Notes under the pieces: model-generated
The model's input: the letters and a program-made list of their open reading frames with translations, nothing else
What the model was told of the DNA's origin: nothing
The model's database searches: none
Part shown: positions 37,641 through 61,691 of the stretch, in pieces
Layout: every line of letters starts with the position of its first letter
How positions within the stretch are numbered: position 1 is the first letter of the stretch
Source of the DNA: Mesorhizobium ventifaucium
Lineage (GTDB): Bacteria > Pseudomonadota > Alphaproteobacteria > Rhizobiales > Rhizobiaceae
Assembly (NCBI RefSeq): GCF_935822925.1
Contig: NZ_CAKXZS010000003.1
Location: 20,214-84,213, forward strand
Length of the DNA stretch: 64,000 bases
Direction: 5' to 3'
Program-made: the position numbers and the translations under genes

Positions 37641-37748
37641 TCTAAAGCGCGTCGCGTTTGACCGGCCTCATGCGACGCGCTTTAGGTCGTTGTTTTTATG
37701 CATGTCGTTATCGCAAAACCGCTGCACACTTTTGCGCGACATGCATTA
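37641..37748. repeat. Mosaic palindromic repeat, copy C
   Basis: This copy has the left AAAGCGCGTCGC/GCGACGCGCTTT hairpin and the right ATGCATGTCG/GCGACATGCAT module but lacks the inner CCCTCGGG hairpin of copies A and B. It separates the decayed glycosyltransferase gene from the convergent methyltransferase gene, whose TAA stop (TTA at 37746-37748) is formed by its edge. Confidence 0.8.
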
Positions 37749-39329: not shown

Positions 39330-39700
39330 CCGATGGAACGGTGGCAAATCGGCCGCCTTGATGTCTTTGCCCCAGCCGCCGAGCGCGCCGATCTCATGGG
39401 ATTTCCAGCCTGGGCCGTCGGTCGGATCACGGTCCGGGCGCGGCTCGAACCAGACGAGATTGGCCCCGTCCGGCCCGTCGGCCGTGACGATGTCGAGATC
39501 ACCATCCCCGTCGACATCGACAAAGCACGCCATCCGTCGTGAACTCAACACGGGCGGTTGCGATGGTGGTGAGAAGCAGGTCGGGCCAACGCCACCACGA
39601 CAGCGGGGTCTGCGGCATTCCGCCGAGAACCAGATCCAGCCGACCACCGCCGTCGATGTCGCCGACGAGCTTCACATCCCCGGAATGATCGAGGTGGGGG
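39330..39700 (-). pseudogene. Relic of a VCBS/FG-GAP protein gene (copy 3 of the module)
   Basis: The minus strand encodes SGDVKLVGDIDGGGRLDLVLGG through ARVEFTTDGV in one frame (39533-39695). It then continues in another frame with FVDVDGDGDLDIVTADGPDG and GWGKDIKAAD (39340-39532). This is the N-terminal part of the intact VCBS lipoprotein at 50187-52469, with one frameshift and the rest missing. It is followed upstream by a PIG-L relic in the same order as in copy 2. Confidence 0.8.
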
Positions 39701-39939
39701 CGCGACATGTTCGGCAGATCACCCAGCATGCGCACCGATGGCAAACGAAGGACGATTGGTCCAAGGTCGCACGGACGGCCGCGGTGCGACGGTCGGAGGC
39801 GGATCCCTCTCGCGGGCACGAACACATTTTGCCGTCGCCATTAGCCGGACAGCGACACGACCCGCCGTCGTTATCTCACGAACGAGACGCGAAATCGTCC
39901 CATCATCAGGAAGCCGTAAGAGCGTAATATGTTCTGACG

Positions 39940-40189
39940 ACCGGGACCGCCTCGATGGCTTGCGCACGCGCTTGGCTTGCAATCTCGCCTTATCCCTGCA
40001 AGCGGGATGAGGCGCTGCCTATCGGTAACGAAAATGGACCGAACCTGAGCACCTGCGGCGATCCTGTTGGCCGCAACATGCCTGCAACCAGGCGACTGGC
40101 GATCAGGATGCGGCGTAAAAAGCTGGCCGGTGCTGACCTTTCGGCTACCTCAAACGACTAGGCTGGAGTCGCATACGCCTATCGAGCAT
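39940..40189 (-). pseudogene. Relic of a PIG-L deacetylase N-terminus (copy 3)
   Basis: Starting at ATG 40189 on the minus strand the sequence follows the intact PIG-L gene (42675-43469) and the broken copy at 52471-53172 base by base with many changes, including MLDR at the start and a FVTD-encoding stretch. It has stops and frameshifts (TAG after about 13 codons) and breaks off at an IEAV-like segment. The upstream 60-70 bases also resemble the regions upstream of the other two copies. No product is expected. Confidence 0.7.
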
Positions 40190-40342
40190 CGTGCAAATGG
40201 CCTGTCTGGGGTGCCGCATCGGTGCGTATCGATCATCCGTTCGCCGGCGTTGTTCGACGCGGATCACGCATGCTAGCTGAAATCACGACGGCAGGAGGTC
40301 AGAGACGAACGTGCAGCCAAAAGCTGGAAGGAATGGTTCTCG

Positions 40343-42674: not shown

Positions 42675-43469
42675 TCATGCATTGAACTCATAGCGCGTGA
42701 ACAACTCATGATCGCTAAGCAGCCGCTTGACGAAATCGCCGCTCCCCACATCCGAAAGGACCGGCCAGTCGTCCAGGCCTTCCGGCCGCTCCATCTGTGA
42801 CCGGTGCGCGGCCAGCGCATGCCATTTCATGTCAACGACGTCCCCGACATACGCGTTCGAATTGAACAGCGTGAGCCCACGCAAACCTGCAAAGGTCCGG
42901 ATCGTTTGCCGCAATGCGACGCGACTGAGGCCAGGCACTCGATCGTGCAGGCGAACCCACGGCCACTGATACCAGTACCAGACGGGATATTCGAACACGG
43001 TCACGCGCCGGCCATACAGTTGCAGTGCGCCGCGGGCGCCAAGATTGGTGGCAACATGGTCCGCGGGCGGCTCTTTTGCATGGGTGACGAACACGCTCTG
43101 TGGTTGCCAAGCGAAAAGCAACTCAGCGATCGCGTCTACGATCTTACCGACATGATGCTTAGCCATGCCGTCGGGAACTCGCAGAAATCTCACCCGATCA
43201 GCAGATCCGCCCAACCGGCAAACCGCCTCGATCGCTTCGCCCTCGCGGGCGATCCGCAGCGCCTCCCTGTCAATCCGATTTGGATGGGATGCCGAACCGT
43301 CGGTAACGAAAATAAACCGGACATCGGCGCCCGAGCTAAGCTTCTTGCTGGCGACCCCTCCACATCCCAGCGTTTCATCATCGGGATGGGGTGCGATGAT
43401 GACCGCCGATGCCTGCCAGTCTGCTACGTCGAATGGATGAGACCGGTTACACATTGCTCTATCGAGCAT
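42675..43469 (-). CDS. PIG-L family deacetylase (copy 1, intact)
   Basis: The 264-residue protein is a zinc-dependent N-deacetylase of the PIG-L/LmbE type, which removes acetyl groups from N-acetylated sugars. The catalytic motif is APHPDDETLGCGG with H28, D30, D31 and E32. A later HAKEPPADHVATN carries the third zinc histidine. I choose ATG 43469 because the two relic copies begin with the same ATG-CT(C/T)-GAT-AG; ATG 43499 is an in-frame alternative. It is divergent from the cytidylyltransferase gene, with a conserved intergenic block between them. Confidence 0.85.
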   Translation of the reverse strand: MLDRAMCNRSHPFDVADWQASAVIIAPHPDDETLGCGGVASKKLSSGADVRFIFVTDGSASHPNRIDREALRIAREGEAIEAVCRLGGSADRVRFLRVPDGMAKHHVGKIVDAIAELLFAWQPQSVFVTHAKEPPADHVATNLGARGALQLYGRRVTVFEYPVWYWYQWPWVRLHDRVPGLSRVALRQTIRTFAGLRGLTLFNSNAYVGDVVDMKWHALAAHRSQMERPEGLDDWPVLSDVGSGDFVKRLLSDHELFTRYEFNA

Positions 43470-43588
43470 AGCCCCAATCGTATGCCTGACGTCATGCATC
43501 GATGGTTCCGATCATCCCTTCTTCGGTGTGGTTCAACCCGACCTGCGCATGGTAGCAAAACACTGTAGGCGATTGGGGTGAGAAAACA

Positions 43589-44428
43589 ATGAAGGTAGGA
43601 ATTCTTGCTGGCGGACTGGGAACGCGGCTGGCGGAAGAAACCGAGATCCGGCCGAAACCAATGGTCGAAATCGGAGCTAAGCCGATCCTTTGGCATATCA
43701 TGATGCATTATTATGCCTATGGACACCGCGAGTTCGCCGTCGCGCTGGGATACAAGGGCGAATACATCAAACGCTGGTTCAGCGACTATGTCGCATTCGA
43801 TGGCAGCTTGACTGTCAATGCCGCATCGGGAAGCGTCAAGCGCCACTCGAACTCGCTGCCTGACTGGTCCGTCGATCTTGTCGAGACGGGACTGAATACA
43901 CTGACGGGCGGCCGCATAAAACGCCTGATCGACTGGATGGGCGACGAGACTTTCATGCTCACCTGGGGCGATGGGGTTTCGGACGTCAACCTTGATAAAC
44001 TGATCGCCTTTCACAAATCGCATGGCAAGCTTGCAACGATGACGGCGGTGCGTCCGCCAGCACGCTACGGGCACATCGAATTCGACGGCCATCGCGTTGT
44101 CGACTTCACGGAAAAGCCACAGGCCTCAGAGGGTTGGATCAATGGCGCCTTCTTCGTCCTCGAGCCGGGCATAAAGGACTATATCGATGGCGACGATGTC
44201 ATGTTCGAACACGCGCCAATGCAACGGCTCGCGACTGACGGCCAACTGATGGCATATCGCCACGAATCCTTCTGGCAATGCATGGACACCATCCGCGAAA
44301 AGCATCTCCTTCAGAAATTGTGGGACAGCGGGCAGGCGCCCTGGAAAACATGGGAATTGATCGATGAAAGTTCTGGTTACAGGCCACCTCGGCTACATCG
44401 GTTCCGTCCTGACTCCGATGCTGCTTGA
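43589..44428 (+). CDS. Glucose-1-phosphate cytidylyltransferase-like nucleotidyltransferase
   Basis: The 279-residue enzyme should couple CTP to glucose 1-phosphate, giving CDP-glucose, the entry to CDP-deoxysugars. The RfbF signature is strong: ILAGGLGTRLAEETEIRPKPMVEIG at the N-terminus, LTWGDGVSDVNL as the metal-binding segment, and FFVLEPGIKDYIDGD. The 3' end overlaps the next gene by 65 bases, and the last 20 or so residues (DESSGYRPPRLH onward) are an extension beyond the usual RfbF end near PWKTW. The original stop may have been lost. A truncated copy is at 53308. No CDP-glucose 4,6-dehydratase is evident in the window. Confidence 0.85.
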   Translation: MKVGILAGGLGTRLAEETEIRPKPMVEIGAKPILWHIMMHYYAYGHREFAVALGYKGEYIKRWFSDYVAFDGSLTVNAASGSVKRHSNSLPDWSVDLVETGLNTLTGGRIKRLIDWMGDETFMLTWGDGVSDVNLDKLIAFHKSHGKLATMTAVRPPARYGHIEFDGHRVVDFTEKPQASEGWINGAFFVLEPGIKDYIDGDDVMFEHAPMQRLATDGQLMAYRHESFWQCMDTIREKHLLQKLWDSGQAPWKTWELIDESSGYRPPRLHRFRPDSDAA

Positions 44429-45407
44429 ACGCGGCCATGACGTCACGGGCCTAGACAGCGACATCTTCCGGTCATGCACTTTCGTAGGGACGTTGGCCGA
44501 TGTGCCGACGATCGAGAAAGACATCCGTGATGTCGAAATCGACGACGTCGCCGGCTTCGACGCGATCATCCATCTCGCCGGACTGTCGAACGATCCCTTG
44601 GGGGACTACCGACCCCAGCTTACCGAGGAAATCAACTGCGGCGCTTCGGTCAAGCTTGCACAGCTCGCCAAGGCAGCCGGCGTCCAGCGGTTCCTGTATG
44701 CCTCCTCTTGCAGCAATTACGGCGCGGCCGGCGACAGCTTTCTAACTGAGGATGCTCCCTTCAACCCGGTTACGCCTTACGGCGCCTCGAAGGCGAATGT
44801 GGAGCGAGCGGTCGCGCCGATGGCGGATCAATCGTTCAGTCCGACATTCCTGCGTGCTTCCACTGCCTACGGCCTGTCGCCTCGCATCCGCTTCGATCTC
44901 GTGGTCAACAACCTGACCGCCTGGGCCTACACGACCGGCCTGGTCTACCTCAAGAGCGACGGCTCGCCATGGCGTCCGATCGTCCATGTGGAAGACATTG
45001 CGCTGGCCTATGTCGCGGTACTCGAAGCCGAGCGAGAGCTGGTCCACAACGAGGCATTCAATGTCGGCTTGACCACGGAAAACTATCAGATTCGGGAGAT
45101 CGCGGAGTTGGTGCAAACGATCGTTCCCGACAGCCGGGTGAAATTCGCGCCCGACGCCGGGCCAGACAAACGGTGCTATCGCGTCGACTGCACCTATATT
45201 GGTCGCCGCCTGCACGGGTTTAAGCCGCAATGGACGGCGCGGCGCGGTATCGAACAGCTCTATCACACATTTCGCGCGGCAGGCCTTGCACTTGGGGACT
45301 TCGAGGGCGAGCGGTTCAAGCGCATCGCCCATGTGCAGAAGCTGATCCAGGATGGCGAACTGGATACCGATCTGCGCCGCACGCCGCAGTTAGCGGTAGC
45401 GGTTTGA
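44364..45407 (+). CDS. NAD-dependent epimerase/dehydratase (extended SDR)
   Basis: This 347-residue extended SDR should act on the NDP-sugar made by its neighbour. The cofactor loop is GHLGYIG at residues 7-13, a GxxGxxG variant, and the catalytic pair is Y139 and K143 in TPYGASKANVE with the serine in YASSCSNYG. The ATG lies inside the 3' end of the cytidylyltransferase gene, with the GGGAATTGATCG stretch as possible ribosome-binding site. The C-terminal FKPQWTARRGIEQLYHTF block is repeated in the chimeric relic at 53308-53575. Epimerase, reductase or dehydratase activity cannot be distinguished here. Confidence 0.85.
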   Translation: MKVLVTGHLGYIGSVLTPMLLERGHDVTGLDSDIFRSCTFVGTLADVPTIEKDIRDVEIDDVAGFDAIIHLAGLSNDPLGDYRPQLTEEINCGASVKLAQLAKAAGVQRFLYASSCSNYGAAGDSFLTEDAPFNPVTPYGASKANVERAVAPMADQSFSPTFLRASTAYGLSPRIRFDLVVNNLTAWAYTTGLVYLKSDGSPWRPIVHVEDIALAYVAVLEAERELVHNEAFNVGLTTENYQIREIAELVQTIVPDSRVKFAPDAGPDKRCYRVDCTYIGRRLHGFKPQWTARRGIEQLYHTFRAAGLALGDFEGERFKRIAHVQKLIQDGELDTDLRRTPQLAVAV

Positions 45408-45444
45408 ACAAACACAGCCGGGAGCGATTGCTGGTGCAGCCTCT

Positions 45445-45596
45445 GCAACCGAGAAGGTTTGCCGCTCCTGCGGCGGAAGTCACATCGACACTTCCTGAAG
45501 CGCGGCACGGCGCCGCTTGCCGATCGGCTTCCATCGAGCATCGACGACGGCGAGGAAGAACCTGTCTTTCCGCTCAGTGTGGTCGTGGTCGAGTAG
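45445..45596 (+). pseudogene. Relic of a C-methyltransferase N-terminus (copy 1)
   Basis: The plus strand encodes TEKVCRSCGGSHIDT, then after a one-base shift LKRGTAPLADRLPSSIDD and EEEPVFPLSV, ending in VVVE and TAG. This aligns with residues 12-54 of the intact methyltransferase at 53586-54839 (TERACRSCGGSGIETF, GKTPLADRLLTSSDI, EPIFPLRV). It sits directly after the SDR gene, the same place the intact gene has in copy 2. It is cut off where a group II intron-like sequence begins. Confidence 0.82.
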
Positions 45597-45599
45597 CTC

Positions 45600-46040
45600 A
45601 GCCATTCGGCTTTCGCCCTCACAGATCCGGGCGTGCGGCTTTCCCGCACCCGCCTCTTCCCGAGAGCAACCCGCGCGCCGTCAGGGGCTCGAACTCCGAC
45701 CAGCCCCATACGCCGGCTTTTCTGGATACGCCGCGCAAAATCTGGCCGCCGCGTTACGATCCTGAGGCCACCTCGCCACCAGCAATGCGTTGCGAATTGT
45801 AGAACAGGTTGCGGAGCGTTACTGCCAGGCTCAATCGGCCTCTCTCCGCCCTTTGGGCTGGGTGCACCGGACGCCCGTTAGGGAAGAGAGCGGCGGGCCT
45901 GACGGGCCTATTTCAATCCGACCTGGGTTGGCCGTAAACCGATACTCCCACCGGGTTGAGCGCTACACTGAGGGTCGCCGCATGCTCATCTCATCGGCCC
46001 ACATGCTGCGAGGCAGTTGGCGAGCGCCCACCGCTAGGCT
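45600..46040 (-). mobile_element. Probable group II intron remnant
   Basis: Read on the minus strand, 45610-45665 gives a hairpin GAGGCGGGTGCGGGAAAGCCGCACGCCCGGATC-like, close to the hairpin of bacterial group II introns (GAGCCG...GCGGGAAA...GCAC...CGGTTC) that lies near the intron-encoded protein gene. The rest has other stem-forming GC-rich tracts but no reverse transcriptase frame. I infer the 5' domain of an intron that lost its protein. It abuts the methyltransferase relic, so insertion may have broken that gene. The ends are not defined. Confidence 0.4.
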
Positions 46041-46047
46041 CAATGGC

Positions 46048-47328
46048 TCACGATCTTTGTGGAAAACATGGACCCGTGTCTGGGCGCAGTTTCTGATAGA
46101 CTAACTTGAGCCGTTCTGCGCGCGCCTCCCACGAATACAGCTCGACGGCACGCTTGCGCCCTTCGCTTCCCATTTCACTTGCCCGGACCGTATCCTCCAG
46201 CACCGTGATCAATGCCTGGGCGAGCTCGCCAGGAGCGTCGACTTCGACCAGCATCCCGGTGCTGCCAGTTACAATGGATTCACACATCCCGCCCACGCGC
46301 GTTCCCACCACCGGTATCCCGCAGGCCATGCCCTCCACGACCGATATTCCGAAGCTCTCGCTGAGTGACGGATTCACCACAATGTCGGCCTCATGGTACG
46401 TCGCTACGAGGTCCTTGTGGGGCACGTTGCCCACGAAGTGAATTCGATCACCTAACCCGTGGCGCTCGATGAGTTCCTTTAAGTGTTCCTGATATTTGCA
46501 ATTGCCCCAGCGATCGTAGAAACGGTTCAATGCGGTAACCCGCGGATCCGACGAGAGGCTGGTCAGGAAGTCCACCGAAAGCGGCCATTGCGGCCCTGCG
46601 ATCCGAAGTTCCACGTCCGCGAACCTGGCCGCAACCTCACTGAAGGCCTCGATCAGTGTGTGAAGCCCCTTCTCTGGCGATACCCGCCCAACGAACAGGA
46701 TGACACGTCGGGTTCTGGTGGATGCGGAAGCCCGCTGCTCGCTCGGCCGAAAGTAAGAAACGTCCACGCCATTACCGACGGTGGCAACGACGCCAGGATA
46801 GTCCGGGAATGCCGAAAGAAAGGTCCTTGCGATGTGATCGCTGACGGCGACCACCGCATCCACCACCGTGAGCTGACGGGCCACCTGATCGCGGTCACGC
46901 TGTGATAGCCACTCACACTGCATCTCAAGCACGAGCCGATGAGATGAGCTGGCTGCCTTCAGCTCCCGGCACCATGTCCAGTAATTCATCAAATGGACAA
47001 TATCTGGTTGATCTACGGCGAGGTAGCGACGAACCTTGTTACGATATTGCGAGTGGTCATCGGCCTTCCGATCCAACCGCAACCAGCGCGCCAGACGCGG
47101 AAACTCGTTGATGACCCGCTGCAGCGCGTGATCACGTAGCGCCGCAGCCCGCCGCACCGCGAACGGCAGGTCCGCGGGCACCGTGTCGTCTCGATAATGC
47201 TTGCCATAGAGCGTTATCTGCAGGCCTTCGCCGAGCCGCAGCGCCGTATTGTAGACGATCAGCCCGATTGAGTTTTGAACAGGCGGAAAAAGTCTATCGC
47301 ACGGCTGACCGACGTATACGAGCTTCAT
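46048..47328 (-). CDS. Glycosyltransferase family 4 protein
   Basis: The 426-residue GT-B enzyme starts MKLVYVGQPCDRLFPPVQNSIGLIVYNTA, where the SIG loop binds the acceptor. It has VAVSDHIARTFL and GNGVDVSYFRP at the domain boundary, ILFVGRVSPEKGLHTLIEAF as the start of the donor domain and PSLSESFGISVVEGMACGIPVV with the E-x7-E pair. It is the intact relative of the pseudogene at 36331-37640. The next gene upstream on the strand is an SDR, probably in the same operon. Donor and acceptor are unknown. Confidence 0.87.
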   Translation of the reverse strand: MKLVYVGQPCDRLFPPVQNSIGLIVYNTALRLGEGLQITLYGKHYRDDTVPADLPFAVRRAAALRDHALQRVINEFPRLARWLRLDRKADDHSQYRNKVRRYLAVDQPDIVHLMNYWTWCRELKAASSSHRLVLEMQCEWLSQRDRDQVARQLTVVDAVVAVSDHIARTFLSAFPDYPGVVATVGNGVDVSYFRPSEQRASASTRTRRVILFVGRVSPEKGLHTLIEAFSEVAARFADVELRIAGPQWPLSVDFLTSLSSDPRVTALNRFYDRWGNCKYQEHLKELIERHGLGDRIHFVGNVPHKDLVATYHEADIVVNPSLSESFGISVVEGMACGIPVVGTRVGGMCESIVTGSTGMLVEVDAPGELAQALITVLEDTVRASEMGSEGRKRAVELYSWEARAERLKLVYQKLRPDTGPCFPQRS

Positions 47329-47352
47329 GTCACTCCCCCACCGTCAGCTCGT

Positions 47353-48315
47353 TCAGGCGACTCTTCTAAGTGCCGGGCGGTCTTCCGGTCGGGAGAGGTG
47401 GTCGGCGAGGCGGCGAATGCCCTCTTCGAGCGGCACCAGGGGACGGTTCAATATAGCCTTCATCTTGTTCGTGTCAGGACAGCGGCGCGTCATGTCGCCC
47501 TCCGCAAGGGGTGGTCGGAATTCCAACTTCGATGACGAGCCCAGCACTTCGATGACAAACTCGGCCAGCTGTCGAATGCTCATTTCCACGTCGCTGCCCA
47601 CGTTGATCACTTCGTTCTCGTACGCGCGCGTTCGATGAACCGCGATGCAAGCGTCAACCGTGTCGTCGACATAGCAGAAGGTGCGGGTCTGCGAACCGTC
47701 CCCGTAAATCGTCAGGGGCTCGCCGCGCTGGGCGGCACGCACAAATCGCGGCAGAACGAAATCCTCGCTCTGACGTGGTCCGTAGGTGTTGAAGAAGCGA
47801 AAAATGGTAAAGGGAAGTCCAAACTCACGCTGGAAAGTGCGCAGATAGACCTCTCCAAGATTCTTCACCACTGCATACGGCAGACGCGAGTTAAGCGGCG
47901 TGGTGCTCTCGTTTTGCGGCATCTCGAAAGGCTCGCCATATACCTCCGATGACGAAGCGAAGTAGACACGCTCGGCACCGGTGTTCTTGCATAGCCTCAG
48001 CACGTTCTCGATACCGGTGATGTCGCGCAGCACGAGCAGAGGATTTGCCAAAGTCCGCTGCACACCGACCACGGCTGCGAAGTGGAAGACGTGGGTGAAA
48101 TGGAAGCGGTAGAACAACGATGAGATGTCATCGAAATCGTTCGCATCCGCCTTTACTACGGTCAGATTGCCCGCGTCTATTTGTACCTTGTCTCGACTTC
48201 CGGTCGACAGGTTGTCAGCGACGACCACCTGGGTCTGCGGTAGCTTGACCAACGCGCGAGTGAGGGCGCTGCCGATATTGCCCGCTCCACCAGTTACCAG
48301 GATCGATTGCATCAT
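47353..48315 (-). CDS. NAD-dependent epimerase/dehydratase, UDP-sugar type
   Basis: The 320-residue extended SDR has the GGAGNIG cofactor loop at residues 9-15. The SSS/YxxxK site is YFASSSEVYGEPFEMPQNE...LPYAVVKNLGE, typical of UDP-glucuronate decarboxylase and UDP-glucuronate/glucose 4-epimerase relatives. FRFFNTYGPRQ and TIYGDGSQTRTFCYVDD are the substrate-binding blocks. Two ATGs (48315, 48312) follow GAGGTGGGG. With the divergent UDP-sugar dehydrogenase it could convert a UDP-uronic acid to another sugar. Confidence 0.86.
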   Translation of the reverse strand: MMQSILVTGGAGNIGSALTRALVKLPQTQVVVADNLSTGSRDKVQIDAGNLTVVKADANDFDDISSLFYRFHFTHVFHFAAVVGVQRTLANPLLVLRDITGIENVLRLCKNTGAERVYFASSSEVYGEPFEMPQNESTTPLNSRLPYAVVKNLGEVYLRTFQREFGLPFTIFRFFNTYGPRQSEDFVLPRFVRAAQRGEPLTIYGDGSQTRTFCYVDDTVDACIAVHRTRAYENEVINVGSDVEMSIRQLAEFVIEVLGSSSKLEFRPPLAEGDMTRRCPDTNKMKAILNRPLVPLEEGIRRLADHLSRPEDRPALRRVA

Positions 48316-48639
48316 ATTCCCCACCTCAACCGAACAGTTTAATCGACTGACGCAGCGTGCGTCCCTTCGCGAAACGCGGCATCTTCGACCTCGCGAGCGA
48401 AGGTGGCTCCCAGATCCTTTAGGACGTCGCTTGAAAGCTAAATGTGGCAGCGCCAGGTTTATTTGACAACGTGGCTTGGGGTAAGCATTTCGGCTGTTCT
48501 CCCAATGGTGCTATCCATGCTATTTTCGGCTCTGGGGTCGGCTAAGCGCATACATTTTGCTGATTGCTGTGAACTGCTTCCCCGCGTAATTGAGGCGATC
48601 CTTTATTGTCGACATTGAAGCGAAAGTTGCCAGCATCTC
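48316..48639. other. Divergent promoter region of the SDR and UDP-sugar dehydrogenase genes
   Basis: About 320 bases without a gene, more A+T-rich in the middle (GGTTTATTTGACAACGTGGCTT and CATGCTATTTTCGG near 48460-48530). It should carry promoters for both directions. No palindrome or EcfG box was recognised. Confidence 0.45.
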
Positions 48640-49980
48640 ATGCAGACTCCTCCAGACCTTCAGGAACTGGTTAACCGCATCCGAACGCGGGACTACACCA
48701 TTGGCATCATGGGCCTCGGCTACGTTGGTCTGCCACTCGCCATGATCTCGCTGGACGCGGGGTTCAAAGTCATCGGTTTCGACATCGACGCGTCTCGGGT
48801 TGCACTTCTTAACCGCGGAGAAACAGGCATAGATCATTTGCCTGGTGCTGCCATCAAAGTGGCTGTCGACAGCAAGCGGTTTCGCGCCACCAGTGATTTC
48901 GCCGACCTAAGCGAACCCGACGCGATCTTGATAGCGGTGCCAACGCCGCTTACCAGAAACCGGGAGCCGAACCTGTCGTTCGTCGAAAACAGCGCACGTG
49001 CGATCGCGGAGCGGCTGCGCCCTGGTCAACTTGTCGTTCTGGAGTCGACGACCTGGCCAGGAACGACGCGGGAGGTCGTGCAGCCGCTGCTCGAGGCGAC
49101 GAATCTTTCTCTGGGAAAGGACTTTTTTCTCGCCTATTCGCCCGAACGGGTGGACCCGGGCAACGACGTACACACCACCGCCACAGTTGCAAAGGTGATA
49201 GGCGCCGACGACCCATCGTCCCTGCAAGTAGCCAAGGAACTGTATGATCAGATCATCGTGCAAACCGTTCCCGTGGCCTCCACCGCAACGGCAGAGGCTG
49301 TGAAGCTGACCGAGAACATATTTCGCTCTGTCAACATTGCGTTGGTCAATGAGTTAAAGGTGATTTTTGACAGGATGGGCATCGACGTCTGGGAGGTGAT
49401 CGAAGCCGCCAAGACCAAGCCGTTCGGATATATGGCGTTTTATCCAGGCCCTGGCCTCGGCGGGCACTGCATCCCGATCGACCCATTCTACCTGACCTGG
49501 AAGGCAAGAGAGTACGAAGTAACAACACGCTTCATTGAGCTTGCCGGTGAAATCAACACGAATATGCCGCATTATGTGGTTGACCGCCTTGTAGAGGCCT
49601 TGGACCGGCGAGCCGGCCGCGGCCTGAGCGGTTCGCGGATCCTGGTGATCGGGATGTCCTACAAGAAAAACGTGGGTGACACACGAGAAAGCCCATCGTT
49701 GAAGCTGATCGACATCATGGAGCGACGCGGGGCAGTCGTTGATTACCACGACCCCTACGTACCGGAGATACCCGGAACAAGAGAGTACGCCACCCTGGCA
49801 GGTCGCCCCTCTGTGGATATCTGCGCTAGCAGTTTGGCATCGTATGATGCCGTTGTCATCTCGACAGATCATGATGCGATTGATTGGCAGAACATCACCA
49901 AGCACGCAAAGCTGGTGCTCGATACCAGAAATGCTTGTGCGCGCAGTCAGTCACGCACCGATAACGTCGTAAAGGCATGA
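48640..49980 (+). CDS. Nucleotide sugar dehydrogenase (UDP-N-acetyl-hexosamine 6-dehydrogenase type)
   Basis: The 446-residue enzyme oxidises the C6 hydroxyl of a UDP-sugar to a uronic acid with two NAD+. The N-terminal GIMGLGYVGLPLAM (about residues 22-35) binds NAD. The central helix with KLTENIFRSVNIALVNEL and the catalytic cysteine in GLGGHCIPIDPFYLTWKA follow. The C-terminal domain has GMSYKKNVGDTRESPSLKL. These blocks are closest to the WbpA/WecC/TviB group acting on UDP-GlcNAc or UDP-ManNAc rather than Ugd. It supplies a uronic acid for the polymer. Confidence 0.9.
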   Translation: MQTPPDLQELVNRIRTRDYTIGIMGLGYVGLPLAMISLDAGFKVIGFDIDASRVALLNRGETGIDHLPGAAIKVAVDSKRFRATSDFADLSEPDAILIAVPTPLTRNREPNLSFVENSARAIAERLRPGQLVVLESTTWPGTTREVVQPLLEATNLSLGKDFFLAYSPERVDPGNDVHTTATVAKVIGADDPSSLQVAKELYDQIIVQTVPVASTATAEAVKLTENIFRSVNIALVNELKVIFDRMGIDVWEVIEAAKTKPFGYMAFYPGPGLGGHCIPIDPFYLTWKAREYEVTTRFIELAGEINTNMPHYVVDRLVEALDRRAGRGLSGSRILVIGMSYKKNVGDTRESPSLKLIDIMERRGAVVDYHDPYVPEIPGTREYATLAGRPSVDICASSLASYDAVVISTDHDAIDWQNITKHAKLVLDTRNACARSQSRTDNVVKA

Positions 49981-50186
49981 GCGGCCCGACTTGCGCACTG
50001 GCTTGGTCAACCGCTAGCAACAACGTCGAATAGTTTAACACGTCGAGCGGTTGAATTCATTCAGCGCAGCGCAATTTTTCCGGACTTGAGCGTCGAGGCA
50101 TGAGCGCCCGCGCAGCCGTGTAAACAGGTGGAGCCGGCCGAGGTCGCTACGGTTTGCGGCGCCGGCCGGTGCTCACCCCCTCCCCG

Positions 50187-52469
50187 TCAGCGGGCCTTTT
50201 GGGCGCCATCGGCATCCTTGCCGACCGCGTCATTCCGCCAGACATGGATCGCTTCGAATGCGTCCCATGCGATCGACACAATGTCGAGATCCCTGTCACC
50301 GTCGAGGTCGACCGTCCTTGCTCCCAGATGGCTTTCCATCCCTTCGCCGACCAGCTGCTCGATGAACCGTCCCCCACCCAGATTATGCCAGCTCGAGAGG
50401 CGAAGTGCGCCGCGATGCTCGCCCATGATAAGATCCGGCCTGCCGTCCCCAGTCATATCGGAAATTGAAAGGCTATTAAGGGACCCGCGCGAGGTGATTT
50501 CGTGTTGCTCCCAGTCGGAGGAGCTGTCGCCGGGGTTGTGCCACCAATACGCCTTAGCGCTGTCGGCTTTGCCATTTTCCTCGGTCACGACGATGTCCGC
50601 ACGTCCATCGCCATCAAGATCGGCGGCCGCGACGCGGTCGGGATAGACCATTTCAGGAACTTTTCCAACATGCCGAAGCTCCCAGTCTGGCGAGCCGTCA
50701 CCTGGATTGCGCCACCATGCGGCCGTCTTTGCATCGCCGGTCGTGGCGACAAGGTCAAGTAGACCGTCGCCATCGATATCGGCGAATGCGATCCCTTCAT
50801 CAGACGCTTCGGCGCAGATGCGGGTGCGCGGCCATGGCTCGACTGTTGGATCGTCAGGAATCTTAAAGTAGAAAACCCCACCGCCACTCGAGACCGCCAG
50901 CTCCGGCTTCCCACGTTTTACGACCTGGGCTAGCGCATGGCCCTGAGAGCCGAGCTCATGACTGGCGGCGGGAACCTCTCCGATCTCGTGCTCTTCAAAG
51001 CGGTGCGCTTCAATGTCCTCGGCATGGAGCCACACCAGATGCAGCGCCCTGCCTCCGCCGCGCTGTGCTATGACCTCCCCGCGCCCGTCACCATCGAGAT
51101 CCAGGGCCGCGACCGCGTCCACACCCTCGGCAAGCGGGGTCCGTTCCCATTCTGTGTTCCAGGCTTCGGACGGTTGACGGTACCAGAACGGACCCGAGAT
51201 GATGTCAGTGAGATCATCACTATCCATGGCGGAAAAAGCGATCCCAAAGGAGCGGACGTGCCCGTTCGTGATGCGATGATAGGTCCAGCGGTCGAGGCGG
51301 ACCGATGCAGGCGGATCCAGTCGATTGATCCACACTCTGACAGGCGGGTTGCCCACCCAGTTCGCCCCATAGATGTCAAAATCGCCGTCCCTGTCGACAT
51401 CGGCGACGACGCCGTTGTGGAGACCCACATCGTCGATCACTTGACGGGCCCAGCGCGTTCCTCGCCCGTCGACATTGTAATGGATCGCGAGCTTGCGCTC
51501 CTCGGTCGTATGCATCTGCCCGACAACGACATCGTTGTCCCCGTCTCCGTCCATATCGGCGGCCTGCAGCGTATGGGCGCCCGCGACAGAAGGCTGAATG
51601 ACATGGCGGATCCAGCGGCCCGTCGGTCCGGCGAGGGGCTGGAACCAGGCGACGTCGTCAGTGTGCTCGGAACTTGAAGTCAGAATGTCGGCGCGGCCGT
51701 CCTGGTCAAGGTCGGTGACGAGCGCCTTGAATGCAGGATTGAACGGACCAAGCTCGTAGCTGCGCCATAGTGCTGCATCGCGTGCTGCCGCTGCGCCTGG
51801 ATTCGACGCCCATACTCCGTGCAGGACGAGATCGACATCAGCATCGCCGTCAATATCACCGATTGCCGTTCCCTCTTCGCCAAGGTTGAAGAAGAACAAG
51901 CCCACGCGGGTCCAGGAGCTGGGGCTTTCTTGGAAGAAAATCATCACTTCGCCAGGCGCCCGTACGACGATATCAACGAGGCCGTCCCCGTCGAAATCAG
52001 CCGCCTTGATGTCTTTGCCCCAGCTGCCGACTGCACCGATTTCCCGACGCTTCCAGCTGGGACCGTGGGTCGGGTTACCATTCGGCCGGGGGTTCTCGAA
52101 CCAGACGAGATTGACAGCATCGGGCCCATCGGCCGTGACGATGTCGGGATCACCGTCCCCATCGATGTCGGCAAGCACTCCGTCGGTGGTGAACTCGACG
52201 TGGGGCCTCGCGATTACGGTGTGAACCAGATCGGGCCACCGCCACCAAGACATCGCATCCTCGGGGAAGCCACCAAGAACGAAATCTAGTCGACTGTCGC
52301 CGTCTATATCGCCAACAAGCTTTACGTCTCCTGAATAGGGGGCAATCTCTTTGCGTTCAAAAACAAGACCCGACTGTAGAATCTCTTCGGGAGGTCCCTG
52401 TCCCCGAGCGGCCTCGCAACTTGCGAGGGTGTACCCGATCATCAGGACCGCGATCAGGCGGCCGAACAT
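50187..52469 (-). CDS. VCBS/FG-GAP repeat lipoprotein
   Basis: The 760-residue protein has a lipoprotein signal (LIAVLMIGYTLASC, lipobox cysteine 18) and then about ten repeats with DxDGDGxxD calcium-binding loops such as DIDGDGDPDIV, DFDGDGLVDIV, DMDGDGDNDVV and DLDGDGRADIV. These should form a beta-propeller or two of FG-GAP type, anchored at the cell surface or periplasmic membrane. The ATG at 52469 is one base past the TAG of the decayed PIG-L gene, so translation may once have been coupled. A related relic is at 39330. It may bind or organise polysaccharide or adhesins. Confidence 0.85.
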   Translation of the reverse strand: MFGRLIAVLMIGYTLASCEAARGQGPPEEILQSGLVFERKEIAPYSGDVKLVGDIDGDSRLDFVLGGFPEDAMSWWRWPDLVHTVIARPHVEFTTDGVLADIDGDGDPDIVTADGPDAVNLVWFENPRPNGNPTHGPSWKRREIGAVGSWGKDIKAADFDGDGLVDIVVRAPGEVMIFFQESPSSWTRVGLFFFNLGEEGTAIGDIDGDADVDLVLHGVWASNPGAAAARDAALWRSYELGPFNPAFKALVTDLDQDGRADILTSSSEHTDDVAWFQPLAGPTGRWIRHVIQPSVAGAHTLQAADMDGDGDNDVVVGQMHTTEERKLAIHYNVDGRGTRWARQVIDDVGLHNGVVADVDRDGDFDIYGANWVGNPPVRVWINRLDPPASVRLDRWTYHRITNGHVRSFGIAFSAMDSDDLTDIISGPFWYRQPSEAWNTEWERTPLAEGVDAVAALDLDGDGRGEVIAQRGGGRALHLVWLHAEDIEAHRFEEHEIGEVPAASHELGSQGHALAQVVKRGKPELAVSSGGGVFYFKIPDDPTVEPWPRTRICAEASDEGIAFADIDGDGLLDLVATTGDAKTAAWWRNPGDGSPDWELRHVGKVPEMVYPDRVAAADLDGDGRADIVVTEENGKADSAKAYWWHNPGDSSSDWEQHEITSRGSLNSLSISDMTGDGRPDLIMGEHRGALRLSSWHNLGGGRFIEQLVGEGMESHLGARTVDLDGDRDLDIVSIAWDAFEAIHVWRNDAVGKDADGAQKAR

Positions 52470-52470
52470 G

Positions 52471-53172
52471 CTAAATGTTGATTTCGCAGCGGGGGAACAT
52501 TTCGTAGTCGGCCAGCAGCCGTCCGACGAAATCCCCCCCCGACAAGTCCGACAGCGTCCGCCATTCATCTTGGTTCTCCAGGCGCATCTGCGACGCATGC
52601 GCCGCCAGCGCTTCCTGCATTATGCCGATAACATCGCCAAGATAGGCGAGGCTATTGGGCGTGGACGACGCAATGGTACCAATCCAGGCTGGATACTCGA
52701 ATACCGTAACAGGGCGACCCTAAGCACGAAGCGCCGCGCGAACTGCTGCATTGACGGCGACATGATGGGAAGTCGGATACTTTGCATAGTTCACGAAAAC
52801 GCTCTGCGGCCGCCATGACTTGAGCATCGACACGACCGCATGTGTTATCTCATGAACGTGATGATTGGCCGCCCCGCCTGGAAGGCGTAAGAAGGTAACA
52901 CTTTCGGATGAAGCGCCCAGACGATGAACTGCTTCTATGGCTCCGGCTTCGCGTGTCGTCCGCAAGGTTTCAGGATGCCTAAGGTCGCGACGGCGGCGCC
53001 ATCGGCGACAAAAACCAAACGGACCTAGGCACCCGAGGCAATCTTTTTGGCCGCAACGCCACCGCAACCCAGCGTCTCATCATCCGGATGTGGCGCAACA
53101 AATGACAGCCGACGCTGACCAGTCGCCTACTTCAAACGGCTTAAGTCGCAGTCGCAATTTACTATCAAGCAT
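52471..53172 (-). pseudogene. PIG-L deacetylase gene, inactivated (copy 2)
   Basis: The frame begins at ATG 53172 like copy 1, but a base insertion before the HPDDETLG motif, an in-frame TAG soon after it, another TAG just before GRPVTVFEYP and an internal deletion of about 35 codons destroy it. The C-terminal part (HASQMRLENQDEWRTLSDLSGGDFVGRLLADYEMF) is still well readable. It ends in TAG one base before the VCBS gene start. A run of eight Cs at 52533-52540 is a possible slippage site. Confidence 0.88.
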
Positions 53173-53307
53173 GGTGCTGAAGGTCCGCCTAAGGTCCACG
53201 TTGGTGCGCTTCCATCATCCGTTCGCTCGCGTTGTTGAAGGCCGATCGCCCGTGGTAACAGAACTCACGGGCGTTCGAGACCTGTGCTTGTTGGTGGGGA
53301 AGACTTT

Positions 53308-53575
53308 ATGAAAGTGGGTATCCTCGCGGGAGGATTTGGGACACGGCTGGCCGAGGAAACAGAGAGCCTGCACGTGTTCAAGCCGCAATGGACGGCCCGA
53401 CGCGGCGTCGCGCAGCGCTACGAGGCATTCGGCACTGTTGGTTTCTTGTTTGAAGAGTTCGAGGGGGGAGCGCTTCAGGCGCATCGCCCACGTGAAGAAG
53501 CTGATCCGCGATTGCGAACTGGACGAGCACCTGGTCGCGTTCCCGTTCTGGCCAAAGCAGACTGAGCCGGGCTAA
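53308..53575 (+). pseudogene. Chimeric relic: cytidylyltransferase start fused to SDR end (copy 2)
   Basis: The sequence starts MKVGILAGGFGTRLAEETE, matching the first 19 residues of the cytidylyltransferase at 43589. It then jumps directly to LHVFKPQWTARRGVAQRYEAF, matching the C-terminus of the SDR at 44364. A single deletion between those two sites in a copy of 43589-45407 explains it. A frameshift follows, with the SDR end (RIAHVKKLIRDCELDEHL) in another frame. It shows that copy 2 once held both genes in the same order. Confidence 0.87.
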
Positions 53576-53585
53576 GGGGGACGAT

Positions 53586-54839
53586 ATGGACATGATGTGC
53601 CTAGATGCGAATTCGGTGACCGAGCGGGCCTGTCGATCTTGCGGTGGAAGTGGCATTGAGACGTTTCTTGAGTTCGGTAAAACGCCACTGGCCGATCGCC
53701 TTCTCACCAGCAGCGACATCGCGGAACCGGAGCCCATTTTTCCGCTGCGCGTCGCGTTCTGCAAAGACTGCAGCCTCGTCCAGATCACCGAAACGGTGAA
53801 TCCGATAATTCTTTTTGCCGATTCTTATCCATATTATTCTTCTTTCTCCCCTGCTCTCTTAAAGCATTCGCGTGCGAATGCGGTTGATCTGATCAACCGC
53901 CGCGGTCTTGGCCCGGAGAGCCTTGTCATCGAATTGGCGAGCAATGATGGTTATCTGCTGAAGAACTACGTCGAGGCGGGAATTCGGGTGCTCGGAATTG
54001 ATCCGGCCGACGGACCTGCCGCCGCTGCCGAGAGGGTCGGCGTGCCCACGCGCTGTGCATTCTTCACCCGCGATCTCGCGGAAACGCTGCGCGCGCAAGG
54101 TATGCGCGCGGACATTATCCATGCCAATAACGTGCTCGCCCACGTGGCCGACACCAACGGATTTGTGGCAGGAATTGCCCGACTTCTCAAGGATGACGGT
54201 GTGGCGGTTATCGAGGCACCCTATGTCGAACCTTTGATCGAACATTGTGAGTTCGACACGATCTATCACGAGCATCTTTGCTATTTTTCAGTTACTGCAC
54301 TGGATAAGCTCTTTCGCCGTCACGGGCTTTACCTCAATGAGGTCAAGCACCTTTCAATCCACGGCGGTTCACTGCGCCTTTATGTGGAACCGCGCGAGAA
54401 CGTGGGTGCGACAGTAAAGGAACAGCTTGCCCATGAAGCCTCGCGCGGGATCGATGCGATCGGCTATTTCCGCGATTTCTCCACCAAGGTCGACGCGCTG
54501 AAGCGCGACCTTTCCACGCTCTTGCGCCGGTTAAAGTCGCAGGGTGCCACGATTGCCGCCTATGGAGCGGCAGCCAAGGGAGCAACGCTGATTAACACCG
54601 TCGGCATCGGGCGCGACCTCGTTGACTTCGTCGTGGATCGCAACGTCTATAAACACAACAAATACATGCCCGGACAGCGCCTGCCGATCCGCTCGACTGA
54701 AGCGCTTCTCGAGGTGCAACCCGACTACGTCCTTCTCCTTGCTTGGAATTTCGTAGACGAAATTCTCGATCAACAGGCTGAGTATCGTGCACGCGGCGGA
54801 AAATTCATCGTCCCCGTCCCAACGCCGAGAATCATATGA
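53586..54839 (+). CDS. SAM-dependent C-methyltransferase of NDP-sugars (zinc-containing type)
   Basis: This 417-residue enzyme is of the class that methylates carbon in NDP-deoxysugars, like TylC3 and NovU. The N-terminal domain binds zinc through C16, C19, C59 and C62 (ACRSCGG; FCKDCSL). The central SAM domain has VIELASNDGYLLKNY and DIIHANNVLAHV. The C-terminal domain has YGAAAKGATLINTVGIG and VVDRNVYKHNKYMPG. The family order zinc, SAM, C-terminal domain is complete. It follows the chimeric relic and overlaps the next methyltransferase by ATGA. It is the intact counterpart of the relic at 45445. Confidence 0.87.
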   Translation: MDMMCLDANSVTERACRSCGGSGIETFLEFGKTPLADRLLTSSDIAEPEPIFPLRVAFCKDCSLVQITETVNPIILFADSYPYYSSFSPALLKHSRANAVDLINRRGLGPESLVIELASNDGYLLKNYVEAGIRVLGIDPADGPAAAAERVGVPTRCAFFTRDLAETLRAQGMRADIIHANNVLAHVADTNGFVAGIARLLKDDGVAVIEAPYVEPLIEHCEFDTIYHEHLCYFSVTALDKLFRRHGLYLNEVKHLSIHGGSLRLYVEPRENVGATVKEQLAHEASRGIDAIGYFRDFSTKVDALKRDLSTLLRRLKSQGATIAAYGAAAKGATLINTVGIGRDLVDFVVDRNVYKHNKYMPGQRLPIRSTEALLEVQPDYVLLLAWNFVDEILDQQAEYRARGGKFIVPVPTPRII

Positions 54840-56059
54840 CAAAACAGGCGGACCGCGCGCAAATGGCTTGCCTGAAAGCCGATGGACCGACGCAGTCGAC
54901 GGCTTCCATTCGAACCGATTGCTTGGTCTGCGGTCAGCGAAATCTGCTCAATTCGGTGCTATTCGAAGCGTTGCCCCTGCTCTGCAACGCGCTTTGTGCG
55001 GACGCGGCATCGGCGCGCGCGGCACAGACCGGCAGATTTGCGACTACCTTCTGCCTCGGCTGCACGCACGTCTTCAACGCCTCATTCGAGGAAAATCGCA
55101 TCGGTTATACGCAAAGCTACGAGAATTCGCTTCATTTCTCCCCCCGTTTCGTGGCGTTTGTTGAAACGCTGGCCGAGCGCCTGAGCAGGACCTACGCGCT
55201 CTCGGGGAAGACGATCGTCGATATTGGATGCGGCAAGGGGGATTTCCTGAAGCGGCTAAGCATGATCAGCGGTGCGCAGGGAATCGGTTTCGACAAGAGC
55301 TTCGAGGACAATCGGGGGGAGGCGGTCCCTGGCGTACGATTTATCAACGACTGGTTCGGCGATTCCTACGCGGATCTGCGTCCTGACCTAGTGGTATGCC
55401 GCCAGGTTCTCGAACATATCGCCGAGCCGGTGAAATTCCTGCGCGGCCTTCGCGCCCATCCGGGCATCGGACCGGAGACGGTGTTCTTCTTTGAAGTCCC
55501 GAATGTCCTTTACACGCTCCGAGATATGGGAATCTGGGACATCATTTATGAGCACGCCTCCTATTTCACGCCCGCTTCGCTGAACGCGGCGTTCGAGACG
55601 GCTGGCTTTCGAGTGCTGGATGCAGGGACGTCTTTTGGCGACCAGTATCTTTACATTGAGGCGCGGCCGGCTGCCCCCAAGAACGTTACTTCCGTTGACA
55701 GCCGCGAGATCGAAATGCTCGTCCGCGATTTCGAGCGCGCCTATCGCGACAAGATCGAGCGATTGGGTGGTTACATCGCGAGGCGCAATCCCCAGCAGAC
55801 CGTCGTCTGGGGAGGGGGATCGAAGGGCATTACATTCGTCAACGTGGTGCCAGGCGCCGATCGGATCCGCGCGATCATCGACGTGAATCCGCACAAGCAA
55901 GGTCGCTTTGCCCCAGGAACCGCCACTCCGGTCCTTGCTCCGGAGGAGTTGCGCGGCCAACCAGTCGAAACAATCATCGTCATGAACCCGCTCTACCGCG
56001 AGGAGATCACCAGTCTCGTAGCGGAGCTCGGCTTCACACCGGAGATTGCGGTTGCATGA
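54836..56059 (+). CDS. Second C-methyltransferase-type SAM enzyme
   Basis: The 407-residue protein has the same three-part plan as its neighbour: an N-terminal part with CLVCGQRN and FCLGCTHV (zinc ligands), a SAM domain with IVDIGCGKGDFLKRL and VVCRQVLEHIAEPVKFL, and a C-terminal part with VVWGGGSKGITFVNVVPG and IDVNPHKQGRFAPGT. It is closer to the third enzyme at 58850 than to the first at 53586. Translation is coupled to the upstream gene by ATGA. It may methylate a different carbon or a different sugar. A truncated copy follows at once. Confidence 0.84.
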   Translation: MTKQADRAQMACLKADGPTQSTASIRTDCLVCGQRNLLNSVLFEALPLLCNALCADAASARAAQTGRFATTFCLGCTHVFNASFEENRIGYTQSYENSLHFSPRFVAFVETLAERLSRTYALSGKTIVDIGCGKGDFLKRLSMISGAQGIGFDKSFEDNRGEAVPGVRFINDWFGDSYADLRPDLVVCRQVLEHIAEPVKFLRGLRAHPGIGPETVFFFEVPNVLYTLRDMGIWDIIYEHASYFTPASLNAAFETAGFRVLDAGTSFGDQYLYIEARPAAPKNVTSVDSREIEMLVRDFERAYRDKIERLGGYIARRNPQQTVVWGGGSKGITFVNVVPGADRIRAIIDVNPHKQGRFAPGTATPVLAPEELRGQPVETIIVMNPLYREEITSLVAELGFTPEIAVA

Positions 56060-56199
56060 AAGTTCAATTCAACCGCAGCGGCGCGAAAGCGCAGGATTGG
56101 TAGGGGATACTCCCACCAAGGGTCATCGGACTTTCTCGCCTCGTTTTACCCCGACAATCTGGCAGAGAGGCGCTCACCTTGATTGCCGCGGGCACCTCG

Positions 56200-56835
56200 C
56201 TTGCCCTTGAACATCAGCCGGCGCGGAAAGAGGTAGCCTCCCGCTTCTTGATCGCCTGCGCGGATGGGCGTGTGGGACGCGGGATGGTCCATCGGTAATC
56301 GTGCTGCACCAAACTGCCCCGGGTGCGTAAGACATACGTCGTTTGGGGACGTTTACGTTCCCACGCTCCGGCGTAGCGCCGAGCTACAGCACCTGTGGGG
56401 ACGCGACCGTGACCAGTATCTCTTCATCGAAGCAAGCCTCCCGAAATCGGATGACGGCCGGTCTTTCAAGCCCTGGAGGGATCGATACCTTGGTCCGCCG
56501 CTTCGACCAAACCTATCGCGACAAAGTCGCTGGTGGCGCGATTACCCATTACCTTGCAACACGGAATCGAGAGCAGACCGTTGTCTGGGGTGCGGGATCA
56601 AAGGGCATCACTTTCGTCAACGTCGTTCCCGAGGGCGCGCGGATCAGCGCCCTGGTCGACGACAACCCGCACAAGCAAGGTCGCTTTGCTCCAGGTACAG
56701 GCACGCCTGTGGTTGGGCGGGAGAGCCTGCGCGGCAGACCCTGCGGTCGATATTGTGATGAACCCGCTCTATCGGGACGGAGTTGCCCAGGCGGCGAATA
56801 AGCTTGGTCTCGCGCCGGATATCATCATTGCATGA
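56200..56835 (+). pseudogene. C-terminal relic of a further C-methyltransferase copy
   Basis: After the intact gene, DQYLFIEASLP appears in one frame. From about 56490 another frame gives RRFDQTYRDKVAGGAITHY and VVWGAGSKGITFVNVVPEG. A third frame ends with DIVMNPLYRDGVAQ and PDIIIA at 56835. These match the C-terminal half of the 54836-56059 protein in order, with at least two frameshifts and no N-terminal half. It is the remnant of a tandem duplication. Its last bases overlap the convergent DUF707 gene. Confidence 0.85.
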
Positions 56836-57805
56836 GCCGGCGACCCACCCTTTGTGGCTGACGGACTGACTTTACCACTCCATCGACGTCGATCCGTTGC
56901 AGGTTGACCGGCCTCAGCCAGCAATGTCGCGTATAGTCGGTCGACCGACGCATAAACTGTGTCCAATTGAGTGGTGTCCTGAACAGCGCCCGCCAAAGGG
57001 ACAGGGAGTTAAGCCCGATCAGAAAGCGAGACTGGACGAGCTGCCCGCGCCTGTCCACCGCTGCATAGGTTACGAACCCGCGAAACGCAGTGCCGAACCT
57101 CTTCAGCACAGCATCAACCTGCACGTCGTAGCGTTCGTTGGCAGCGAAACCTTGAAGCGACTTTGTTGTCCCGACCGGCCGCGTGTGTCTTACAACAACA
57201 TCGTCAACTATGGCGTACCGCAACCAAGGCATGTCAGTCAGGCGGGTCCAAAGAAGGTCTATTCCCGTTTCGTAGCCGAGCCCGAACAATTTCATCGCCG
57301 TTTGCAGGCACTTGGCGCTGAACACCGGGCACATCATCTCGACCGTGTTGGTATATCGCAACAAGTATCTGTCACCGCTGACAAGCGTCGCTGCGTAGGA
57401 GAAATAGCTGTTCCAAGACAGTGCTGGCTGAAACAGATCAAGTTTATAGCGGCGGCCGATAGCGAACAGACGATTCAAGTCCAGCTTCGTCGTCTCGATG
57501 TCATCATCGATCAGTGCAATGAGATCGTATCGCGTCACAATTTCAGGGTAGCGTTGAAACAAGGCATGATAGCCTGCGATCTTGCGCCCCGGGAGAAATA
57601 CGCTGAAATCGTTCTGTCCATGGGAGACGCCAGCCTCGTAGGCGGCGACGAGAAGATCGAAGTCGGCGTCGCCCGCCCCATCAGTCCAACCGGCATGCAA
57701 AGAGCTACGCCCCGCCCGTACGATCACAAGGTTCTTCCTGCCGGTGCCGGCCGGCGGTCCCGATCCAGGCGAACCCTCTGAGCCGTTTGGTTTAGCGCGT
57801 CGCAC
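56825..57805 (-). CDS. DUF707 family protein, glycosyltransferase-like
   Basis: The 326-residue protein starts after a short basic tail with NLVIVRAGRSSLHAGW and contains LIALIDDDIETTKLDLNRLF. This is a DDD motif like the DxD of GT-A glycosyltransferases and is characteristic of DUF707. WNSYFSYAATLVSGDRYLLRYTN and GLGYETGIDLLWTRL are further family blocks. The start is GTG 57805, 10 bases after the upstream GT2 gene, so the two are probably co-transcribed. Enzymatic activity has not been established for most DUF707 proteins. Confidence 0.75.
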   Translation of the reverse strand: MRRAKPNGSEGSPGSGPPAGTGRKNLVIVRAGRSSLHAGWTDGAGDADFDLLVAAYEAGVSHGQNDFSVFLPGRKIAGYHALFQRYPEIVTRYDLIALIDDDIETTKLDLNRLFAIGRRYKLDLFQPALSWNSYFSYAATLVSGDRYLLRYTNTVEMMCPVFSAKCLQTAMKLFGLGYETGIDLLWTRLTDMPWLRYAIVDDVVVRHTRPVGTTKSLQGFAANERYDVQVDAVLKRFGTAFRGFVTYAAVDRRGQLVQSRFLIGLNSLSLWRALFRTPLNWTQFMRRSTDYTRHCWLRPVNLQRIDVDGVVKSVRQPQRVGRRLMQ

Positions 57806-57815
57806 GGTCGATCAG

Positions 57816-58820: not shown

Positions 58821-58849
58821 TTTCCAGCTTCTTCTTGACGAGAGCGCAA

Positions 58850-61383: not shown

Positions 61384-61691
61384 GCATTGCCCTCCCGGAA
61401 TGTTGGCACTTTTTTCCGGAATTCTTGTTGCCCGGATGCTCAGCGACTGTGTGGCGTCCGCCCCGTCCAAACAAGCTGCCTATCGGGTTAAGCGCCGCAC
61501 CCTCCCGAGGCTGGATGTACTCCAACGAGGTACGCCTCCTACTTCGATGGGCCTAAGCACGCATCAACGCTAACCTTATGCGCAGGCTGTATCGGCGCGA
61601 CTGGCGGATTAGGATCATAGCGCGCTCACTTCGCAAGCAGTGGTCGCGCGCCGTATCTGTATCCATTGCCCGCGAGGAGAGTTGATCGTCG
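61384..61691. other. Divergent promoter region before two glycosyltransferase genes
   Basis: These 308 bases separate the GT4 operon from the plus-strand GT2/export operon and must hold promoters for both. No operator-like palindrome or known box was recognised. Confidence 0.45.

Follow-up and report, generated by a model that had tools for sequence, protein, structure and literature searches.

Based on a detailed analysis of a 64,000-nucleotide stretch of the Mesorhizobium ventifaucium genome (contig NZ_CAKXZS010000003.1, positions 20,214 to 84,213; hereafter the window) and comparisons to relatives of the genus, we consider it likely that two diverged homologous loci jointly keep one open copy each of seven genes, locus 2 having been inserted into locus 1 and the spare copies having decayed. 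The shared genes encode a flippase, an FG-GAP repeat protein, a PIG-L deacetylase, a glucose-1-phosphate cytidylyltransferase, an SDR-family nucleotide-sugar enzyme, a sugar 3-C-methyltransferase and a second methyltransferase. A first-pass annotation had described two copies of the order PIG-L, cytidylyltransferase, SDR, methyltransferase, each deprived of different genes and together summing to one full set. This is borne out, and the complementary loss extends further than was seen then. In copy 1, PIG-L, cytidylyltransferase and SDR are open, and the methyltransferase is a 5' relic. In copy 2, PIG-L is a relic, the cytidylyltransferase and SDR genes are reduced to a deletion scar, and the methyltransferase is open. 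Within locus 1 we find the following, in window positions.

34608-36317, plus strand: flippase-like gene, locus-1 copy, open (PF13440)
39346-39686, minus strand: relic of the locus-1 FG-GAP gene
40011-40287, minus strand: relic of a further PIG-L copy
42675-43499, minus strand: PIG-L deacetylase copy 1, open (PF02585)
43589-44428, plus strand: glucose-1-phosphate cytidylyltransferase copy 1, open (TIGR02623; relative of PDB 1tzf)
44364-45407, plus strand: SDR-family nucleotide-sugar enzyme copy 1, open (PF01370)
45425-45587, plus strand: relic of the locus-1 3-C-methyltransferase, about the first 56 codons (about 160 bases), frameshifted
45588-45658, minus strand: fragment of a group II intron, domain V, at the insert's left edge (RF00029, 42.4 bits, gathering threshold 40)
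56409-56836, plus strand: 3' relic of the locus-1 second methyltransferase gene, adjoining DUF707

Locus 2 contributes the following.

45731-56375, no strand assigned: inserted locus-2 block
46048-47328, minus strand: glycosyltransferase GT4 of locus 2
47353-48324, minus strand: SDR of locus 2, outside the duplicated set
48640-49980, plus strand: nucleotide-sugar dehydrogenase of locus 2 (TIGR03026, above cut-off)
50187-52598, minus strand: FG-GAP repeat protein of locus 2, open (PF13517)
52477-53200, minus strand: PIG-L copy 2 relic, with an 86-base deletion, frameshifts and stops
53308-53575, plus strand: deletion scar, start of cytidylyltransferase copy 2 fused to the end of SDR copy 2
53586-54839, plus strand: sugar 3-C-methyltransferase copy 2, intact, 417 codons (PF08421, PF13489, PF08484; PDB 4rv9, 5t64)
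54836-56059, plus strand: second methyltransferase gene copy 2, open

The window has no locus-2 copy of the flippase gene. Copy 1 of the cytidylyltransferase is a full-length member of TIGR02623 (342.6 bits, cut-off 300.25), and at the PIG-L gene the minus strand matched Pfam, while a plus-strand frame across it gave no match. In the scar, about 21 first codons of the cytidylyltransferase abut about 65 last codons of the SDR gene, the SDR portion being frameshifted.

Locus 2 is positioned between the 5' relic of the locus-1 3-C-methyltransferase, which terminates at 45587, exactly where the group II intron domain starts, and the 3' relic of the locus-1 second methyltransferase. In the genomes G014 and G087, the intact locus-1 gene has 88-89% identity to the 5' relic, compared to about 70% for the window's own intact copy. 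Over the 12 relatives with an uninterrupted locus 1 (see below) the identity to this relic falls from 89% to 70-72%, the most distant being G127 and G038, which are no nearer to the relic than is the window's own intact copy. For the 3' relic, identity is 76-88% to the ends of the intact locus-1 genes in these 12 relatives, against 74% to the window's intact copy. Hence, the edge relics are both of locus-1 origin, unlike the intact methyltransferases that they enclose. The copy-1 methyltransferase is a relic, as had been proposed, and not one that simply decayed in place, since the whole of locus 2 separates it from the 3' relic of the next gene.

The arrangement in relatives was established with the intact methyltransferase as query against 146 genomes of the genus: 17 of them (window included) have a match of at least 77% identity, and 59 have any match at E ≤0.001. 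The locus was retrieved from 15 relatives; for the 17th genome, G106, there are two contig ends with the methyltransferase split between them. The order PIG-L, cytidylyltransferase, SDR, methyltransferase, methyltransferase is uninterrupted in 12 of the 15, in agreement with the ancestral order anticipated earlier, with PIG-L broken in six of the 12 and the two locus-1 methyltransferase genes adjacent and intact in all of them. An insert between the two methyltransferase genes is present in the window and in the remaining three, G034, G040 and G144 (M. muleiense, M. prunaredense and M. waimense, respectively). The locus-2 SDR (47353-48324) is found at E ≤1e-100 in 10 of the 146 genomes, namely these four split genomes and, in addition, G037, G090, G141, G074, G097 and G143. 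The latter six are among the 12 with an uninterrupted locus 1; their locus 2 lies elsewhere, 65-86 kb from locus 1 in five and on another contig in G143. Between these two-place relatives and the window, identity is 94-97% over 45731-52671 (from 45817 in G074) and 90-93% over 52671-53368. To the right of the equivalent of 53368, only the start of the cytidylyltransferase is left in their locus 2, up to about codon 80, and neither alignment nor genome-wide searches found the copy-2 SDR or either copy-2 methyltransferase in the six. In G037, the DNA to the right of locus 2 matches another contig (C4) of the window's genome, where no locus-2 match is among those listed. M. prunaredense retains about 2 kb extra of the left flank of locus 2. 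There, the interval between the methyltransferase relic and GT4 (L034 8773-10661) contains what look like an IS630-type transposase remnant and an acyltransferase, and part of it, with the acyltransferase-like stretch, is common to locus 2 of G037.

To follow each shared gene, full-length open copies were counted by genome-wide searches in the 10 genomes carrying both loci; left uncounted were more distant SDRs at 47%, flippase relatives at about 25%, the adjacent third methyltransferase at about 36% and an FG-GAP paralogue at 48-49%. Exactly one full-length open copy was found in 68 of the 70 combinations of seven genes and 10 genomes. Both exceptions concern G074, where FG-GAP and PIG-L-2 (the locus-2 PIG-L copy) are altered near their ends. 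The survivors form four different mixtures among the 10 genomes, given below in the order flippase, FG-GAP, PIG-L, cytidylyltransferase, SDR, 3-C-methyltransferase, second methyltransferase, each digit naming the locus of the surviving copy.

Window: 1-2-1-1-1-2-2
G034 and G040: 2-2-1-1-1-2-2
G144: 1-1-1-1-1-2-2
Six two-place genomes: 2-2-2-1-1-1-1 (FG-GAP and PIG-L-2 of G074 as above)

In all 17 genomes the full-length cytidylyltransferase is copy 1, and each of the 17 has one full-length open copy of the flippase family. The locus-1 PIG-L copy, PIG-L-1, is open in all seven single-locus genomes, broken in all six genomes with an open PIG-L-2, and open in all four with a broken PIG-L-2.

Several of the losses end at different points in different species, on either locus. 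According to local alignments, the PIG-L-1 lesions form at least three distinct sets among the six genomes.

G143: one frameshift
G074 and G097: an early frameshift in common, plus others
G090 and G141: a 3' truncation in common; G037 is truncated earlier

The possibility that PIG-L-1 of G074 is an intact gene was ruled out by two indels and stops. PIG-L-2 of the window, G034 and G040 has the 86-base deletion, a frameshift and a stop in common, and of PIG-L-2 in G144 only part was found. In the window clade, the deletion across the cytidylyltransferase and SDR genes spared a shorter left remnant and a longer right remnant than in M. waimense, and with such end points neither deletion can derive from the other. 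Together with the longer cytidylyltransferase start of the two-place genomes, these separate deletions lead us to infer that the insertion is older than both. For the surviving copies, we estimated ratios of nonsynonymous to synonymous change (dN/dS; simple count method, pairwise, four to six genomes per gene), with medians of 0.03 for the cytidylyltransferase, 0.10 for SDR, 0.10 and 0.20 for copies 1 and 2 of the 3-C-methyltransferase, and 0.19 and 0.32 for copies 1 and 2 of PIG-L, the PIG-L-2 value coming from few changes.

We propose that the split arrangement arose as follows. Locus 2, complete copy-2 module included, would first have inserted into locus 1, cutting both locus-1 methyltransferase genes and supplying its own. 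Afterwards, cytidylyltransferase-2 and SDR-2 would have been deleted, independently in the M. waimense line, and PIG-L-2 would have broken, with selection retaining one copy for each step of one predicted pathway. In this pathway the cytidylyltransferase would provide cytidine diphosphate (CDP)-glucose, SDR and the 3-C-methyltransferase would turn it into a C-methyl-branched sugar, the PIG-L enzyme would take off an acetyl group, and the flippase would export the product. Copy 2 of the 3-C-methyltransferase is related over its full length to sugar 3-C-methyltransferases of solved structure (PDB 4rv9, E 2.4e-87; 5t64) and, with the Zn-binding, methyltransferase and C-terminal domains all present, fits the TylC3/TcaB9 type acting on nucleoside diphosphate (NDP)-sugars. 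It is predicted to methylate a 4-keto sugar at C-3, and the product is predicted to be a C-methyl-branched CDP-linked sugar for surface polysaccharide, for which CDP-vinelose of Azotobacter is a possible chemical parallel. A table in a Sinorhizobium study gives the consecutive tags SMb21416-21418 to a cytidylyltransferase, a CDP-glucose 4,6-dehydratase and an NDP-hexose 3-C-methyltransferase (PMC4053727).

Several points weigh against this proposal. In G074, the sole FG-GAP copy shifts frame near its end; the sole PIG-L copy (PIG-L-2) is open across residues 4-254 of 274 and shares a single 1060-codon open frame with most of FG-GAP (G074:C1:3719040-3722134). FG-GAP is wholly missing in five of the seven single-locus genomes and is therefore not always needed. 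A rule that every pair is exclusive was rejected, as both members of the GT4 pair (about 35% amino acid identity) are open in G074 and G097. The 10 genomes are, moreover, not 10 independent cases. As M. waimense has a different left insert edge, a single insertion event is likely, not proven. Finally, the enzyme functions are predictions assigned by homology, and the pathway should need a 4,6-dehydratase: SDR copy 1 falls below the cut-off of the CDP-glucose 4,6-dehydratase family TIGR02622 (27.7 against 278.45 bits), and no genome-wide search for such an enzyme was made.

Two remnants on the left side of locus 1 are noted in addition. A frameshifted GT4 glycosyltransferase relic (36362-37749) lies beside the flippase gene and has a single-frame counterpart in G087 and G014. 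The PIG-L relic within 39346-40287 has 84-85% identity in G087 and G144, both with an open FG-GAP gene.

How the two copies came together can be read from their similarity and their surroundings. Aligned at the nucleotide level, copy 1 (42675-45587) and copy 2 (52477-54839) yield six collinear matches of 66-77% identity (E 4e-27 to 8e-4), which is not chance similarity. Two unrelated insertions carrying similar motifs, as the mobile-element fragments at the left edge might suggest, are thus rejected as exceedingly improbable, the more so as the entire gene order also occurs in Oricola and on S. meliloti pSymB. The first-pass annotation had proposed segmental duplication followed by differential loss. 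The differential loss stands, and the equal gene order of copies that sum to one set would suit a segment duplicated within Mesorhizobium. However, the copies differ by 23-34%, compared to 2-12% for gyrB across the sampled species (88-98% identity), so that a recent segmental duplication is unsupported and a tandem or recent one was rejected, and the neighbours of copy 2 match a locus located elsewhere in six relatives. In the best trees of PIG-L, FG-GAP and the two methyltransferases, the locus-1 clade excludes the copy-2 genes, and none of these four trees has a Mesorhizobium-only clade of both copies; copy-1 cytidylyltransferase, SDR and PIG-L group with the locus-1 genes of relatives. On the other hand, the best methyltransferase tree joins both Mesorhizobium copies together with two metagenome proteins, perhaps themselves from Mesorhizobium (support 91/83), and a single Mesorhizobium clade is not firmly rejected by the approximately unbiased test (p-AU 0.26 for PIG-L, 0.24 for FG-GAP, 0.056 for the 3-C-methyltransferase and 0.039 for the second methyltransferase). 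Taken together, we regard duplication within the genus as unlikely; acquisition of copy 2 by transfer rather than by an old duplication is favoured, and for the same p-AU values not proven.

A further explanation is plain allele replacement: recombination with incoming DNA would have overwritten the locus-1 methyltransferases, the remaining copy-2 genes would have been dead on arrival, and no complementary decay would have occurred here. The region is indeed a patchwork, as its mixed identities reveal. By gyrB (16 genomes) and parE (14 genomes) the window groups with G034, G040, G014 and G087 (96.5-98%), and M. waimense stands apart (90.9 and 89.6%); the insert is absent from the close relatives G014 and G087 and present in the more distant M. 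waimense. Window 36-42 kb and the insert methyltransferases are 92-98% identical to M. waimense, compared to 76-83% for 59-62 kb. In one-kb steps over 35-49 kb, identity to M. waimense is 91-98% in 14 of 15 and 86% in the remaining one, and over 35-42 kb M. waimense is the nearest of the compared sequences in seven of eight; 44-45 and 59-61 kb are nearest to the window's own close relatives. The split arrangement has probably been exchanged between species. We also note that 56631-62000 is about 82% identical to M. waimense, which suggests a recombination edge near 56 kb. Replacement would further agree with the locus 2 of the six two-place relatives, already without SDR and methyltransferases. 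However, PIG-L-2 is open in those six, and the copy-2 deletions are unlike in the window clade and in M. waimense; some decay therefore came after the insertion, and replacement alone appears quite improbable. Insertion of locus 2 into locus 1, with decay of the spares, is the reading that we retain.

Loci of the same kind occur outside the genus. In the stretch read, Oricola nitratireducens has one complete FG-GAP, PIG-L, cytidylyltransferase, SDR, methyltransferase, methyltransferase locus. S. meliloti 1021 pSymB (NC_003078, 682-706 kb) likewise combines nucleotide-sugar dehydrogenase, SDR, GT4, FG-GAP and PIG-L in one stretch, which continues with cytidylyltransferase, SDR, two methyltransferases, DUF707, GT2 and a third methyltransferase. 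In contrast to the window, the 24 kb read contain a single set of this kind, with a second methyltransferase match elsewhere in the record; the dehydrogenase-SDR-GT4 unit is inverted, and the cytidylyltransferase match (L120 10699-11534) shifts frame after about codon 73 and is possibly a broken gene.

Reciprocal, or alternative, gene loss after duplication is known from yeasts and fishes, in which lineages keep different members of duplicate pairs, as the Mesorhizobium species do. The present case differs in being bacterial, in concerning whole pathway loci and in that the copies were already diverged and possibly acquired by transfer. It is conceivable, though we hold it doubtful, that one chromosome lineage came to carry two complete but diverged loci for surface polysaccharide, that each species settled by chance on one working copy per gene, and that exchange between species whose mixtures differ would yield cells lacking a step. 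If true, this would be a bacterial counterpart of hybrid incompatibility through reciprocal gene loss. Duplicate loss in bacteria is usually visible only once finished, whereas here one genus displays several outcomes with the relics still legible, so that one may ask which copies survive, how often each loss occurred and whether the mixtures limit gene exchange. In Hodgkinia, lineages reportedly have undergone complementary gene loss such that the full gene set exists only as the sum of broken parts; there, complementation is between co-resident cell lineages, as opposed to within one chromosome. For annotators, the Mesorhizobium case is a warning that two broken loci may have to be added together to give a complete pathway.

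Among the papers listed by the literature searches, none dealt with this locus or with replacement and remnants across many genes and species of a rhizobial genus. A close likeness is provided by the Salmonella O-antigen clusters: in B1/B2 and D1/D3 a polysaccharide gene has been functionally replaced from elsewhere and the old gene is a remnant, degraded by different paths in related groups, and D2 is a hybrid cluster produced by recombination, its junction marked by a remnant of a mobile element (PMC3715488). The Salmonella case concerns one polymerase gene and a serogroup change, in contrast to homologous copies of seven genes and two whole loci in Mesorhizobium, where losses fall on both sides in different species. 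Replacement that leaves remnants is thus already known for O-antigen loci (PMC3715488).

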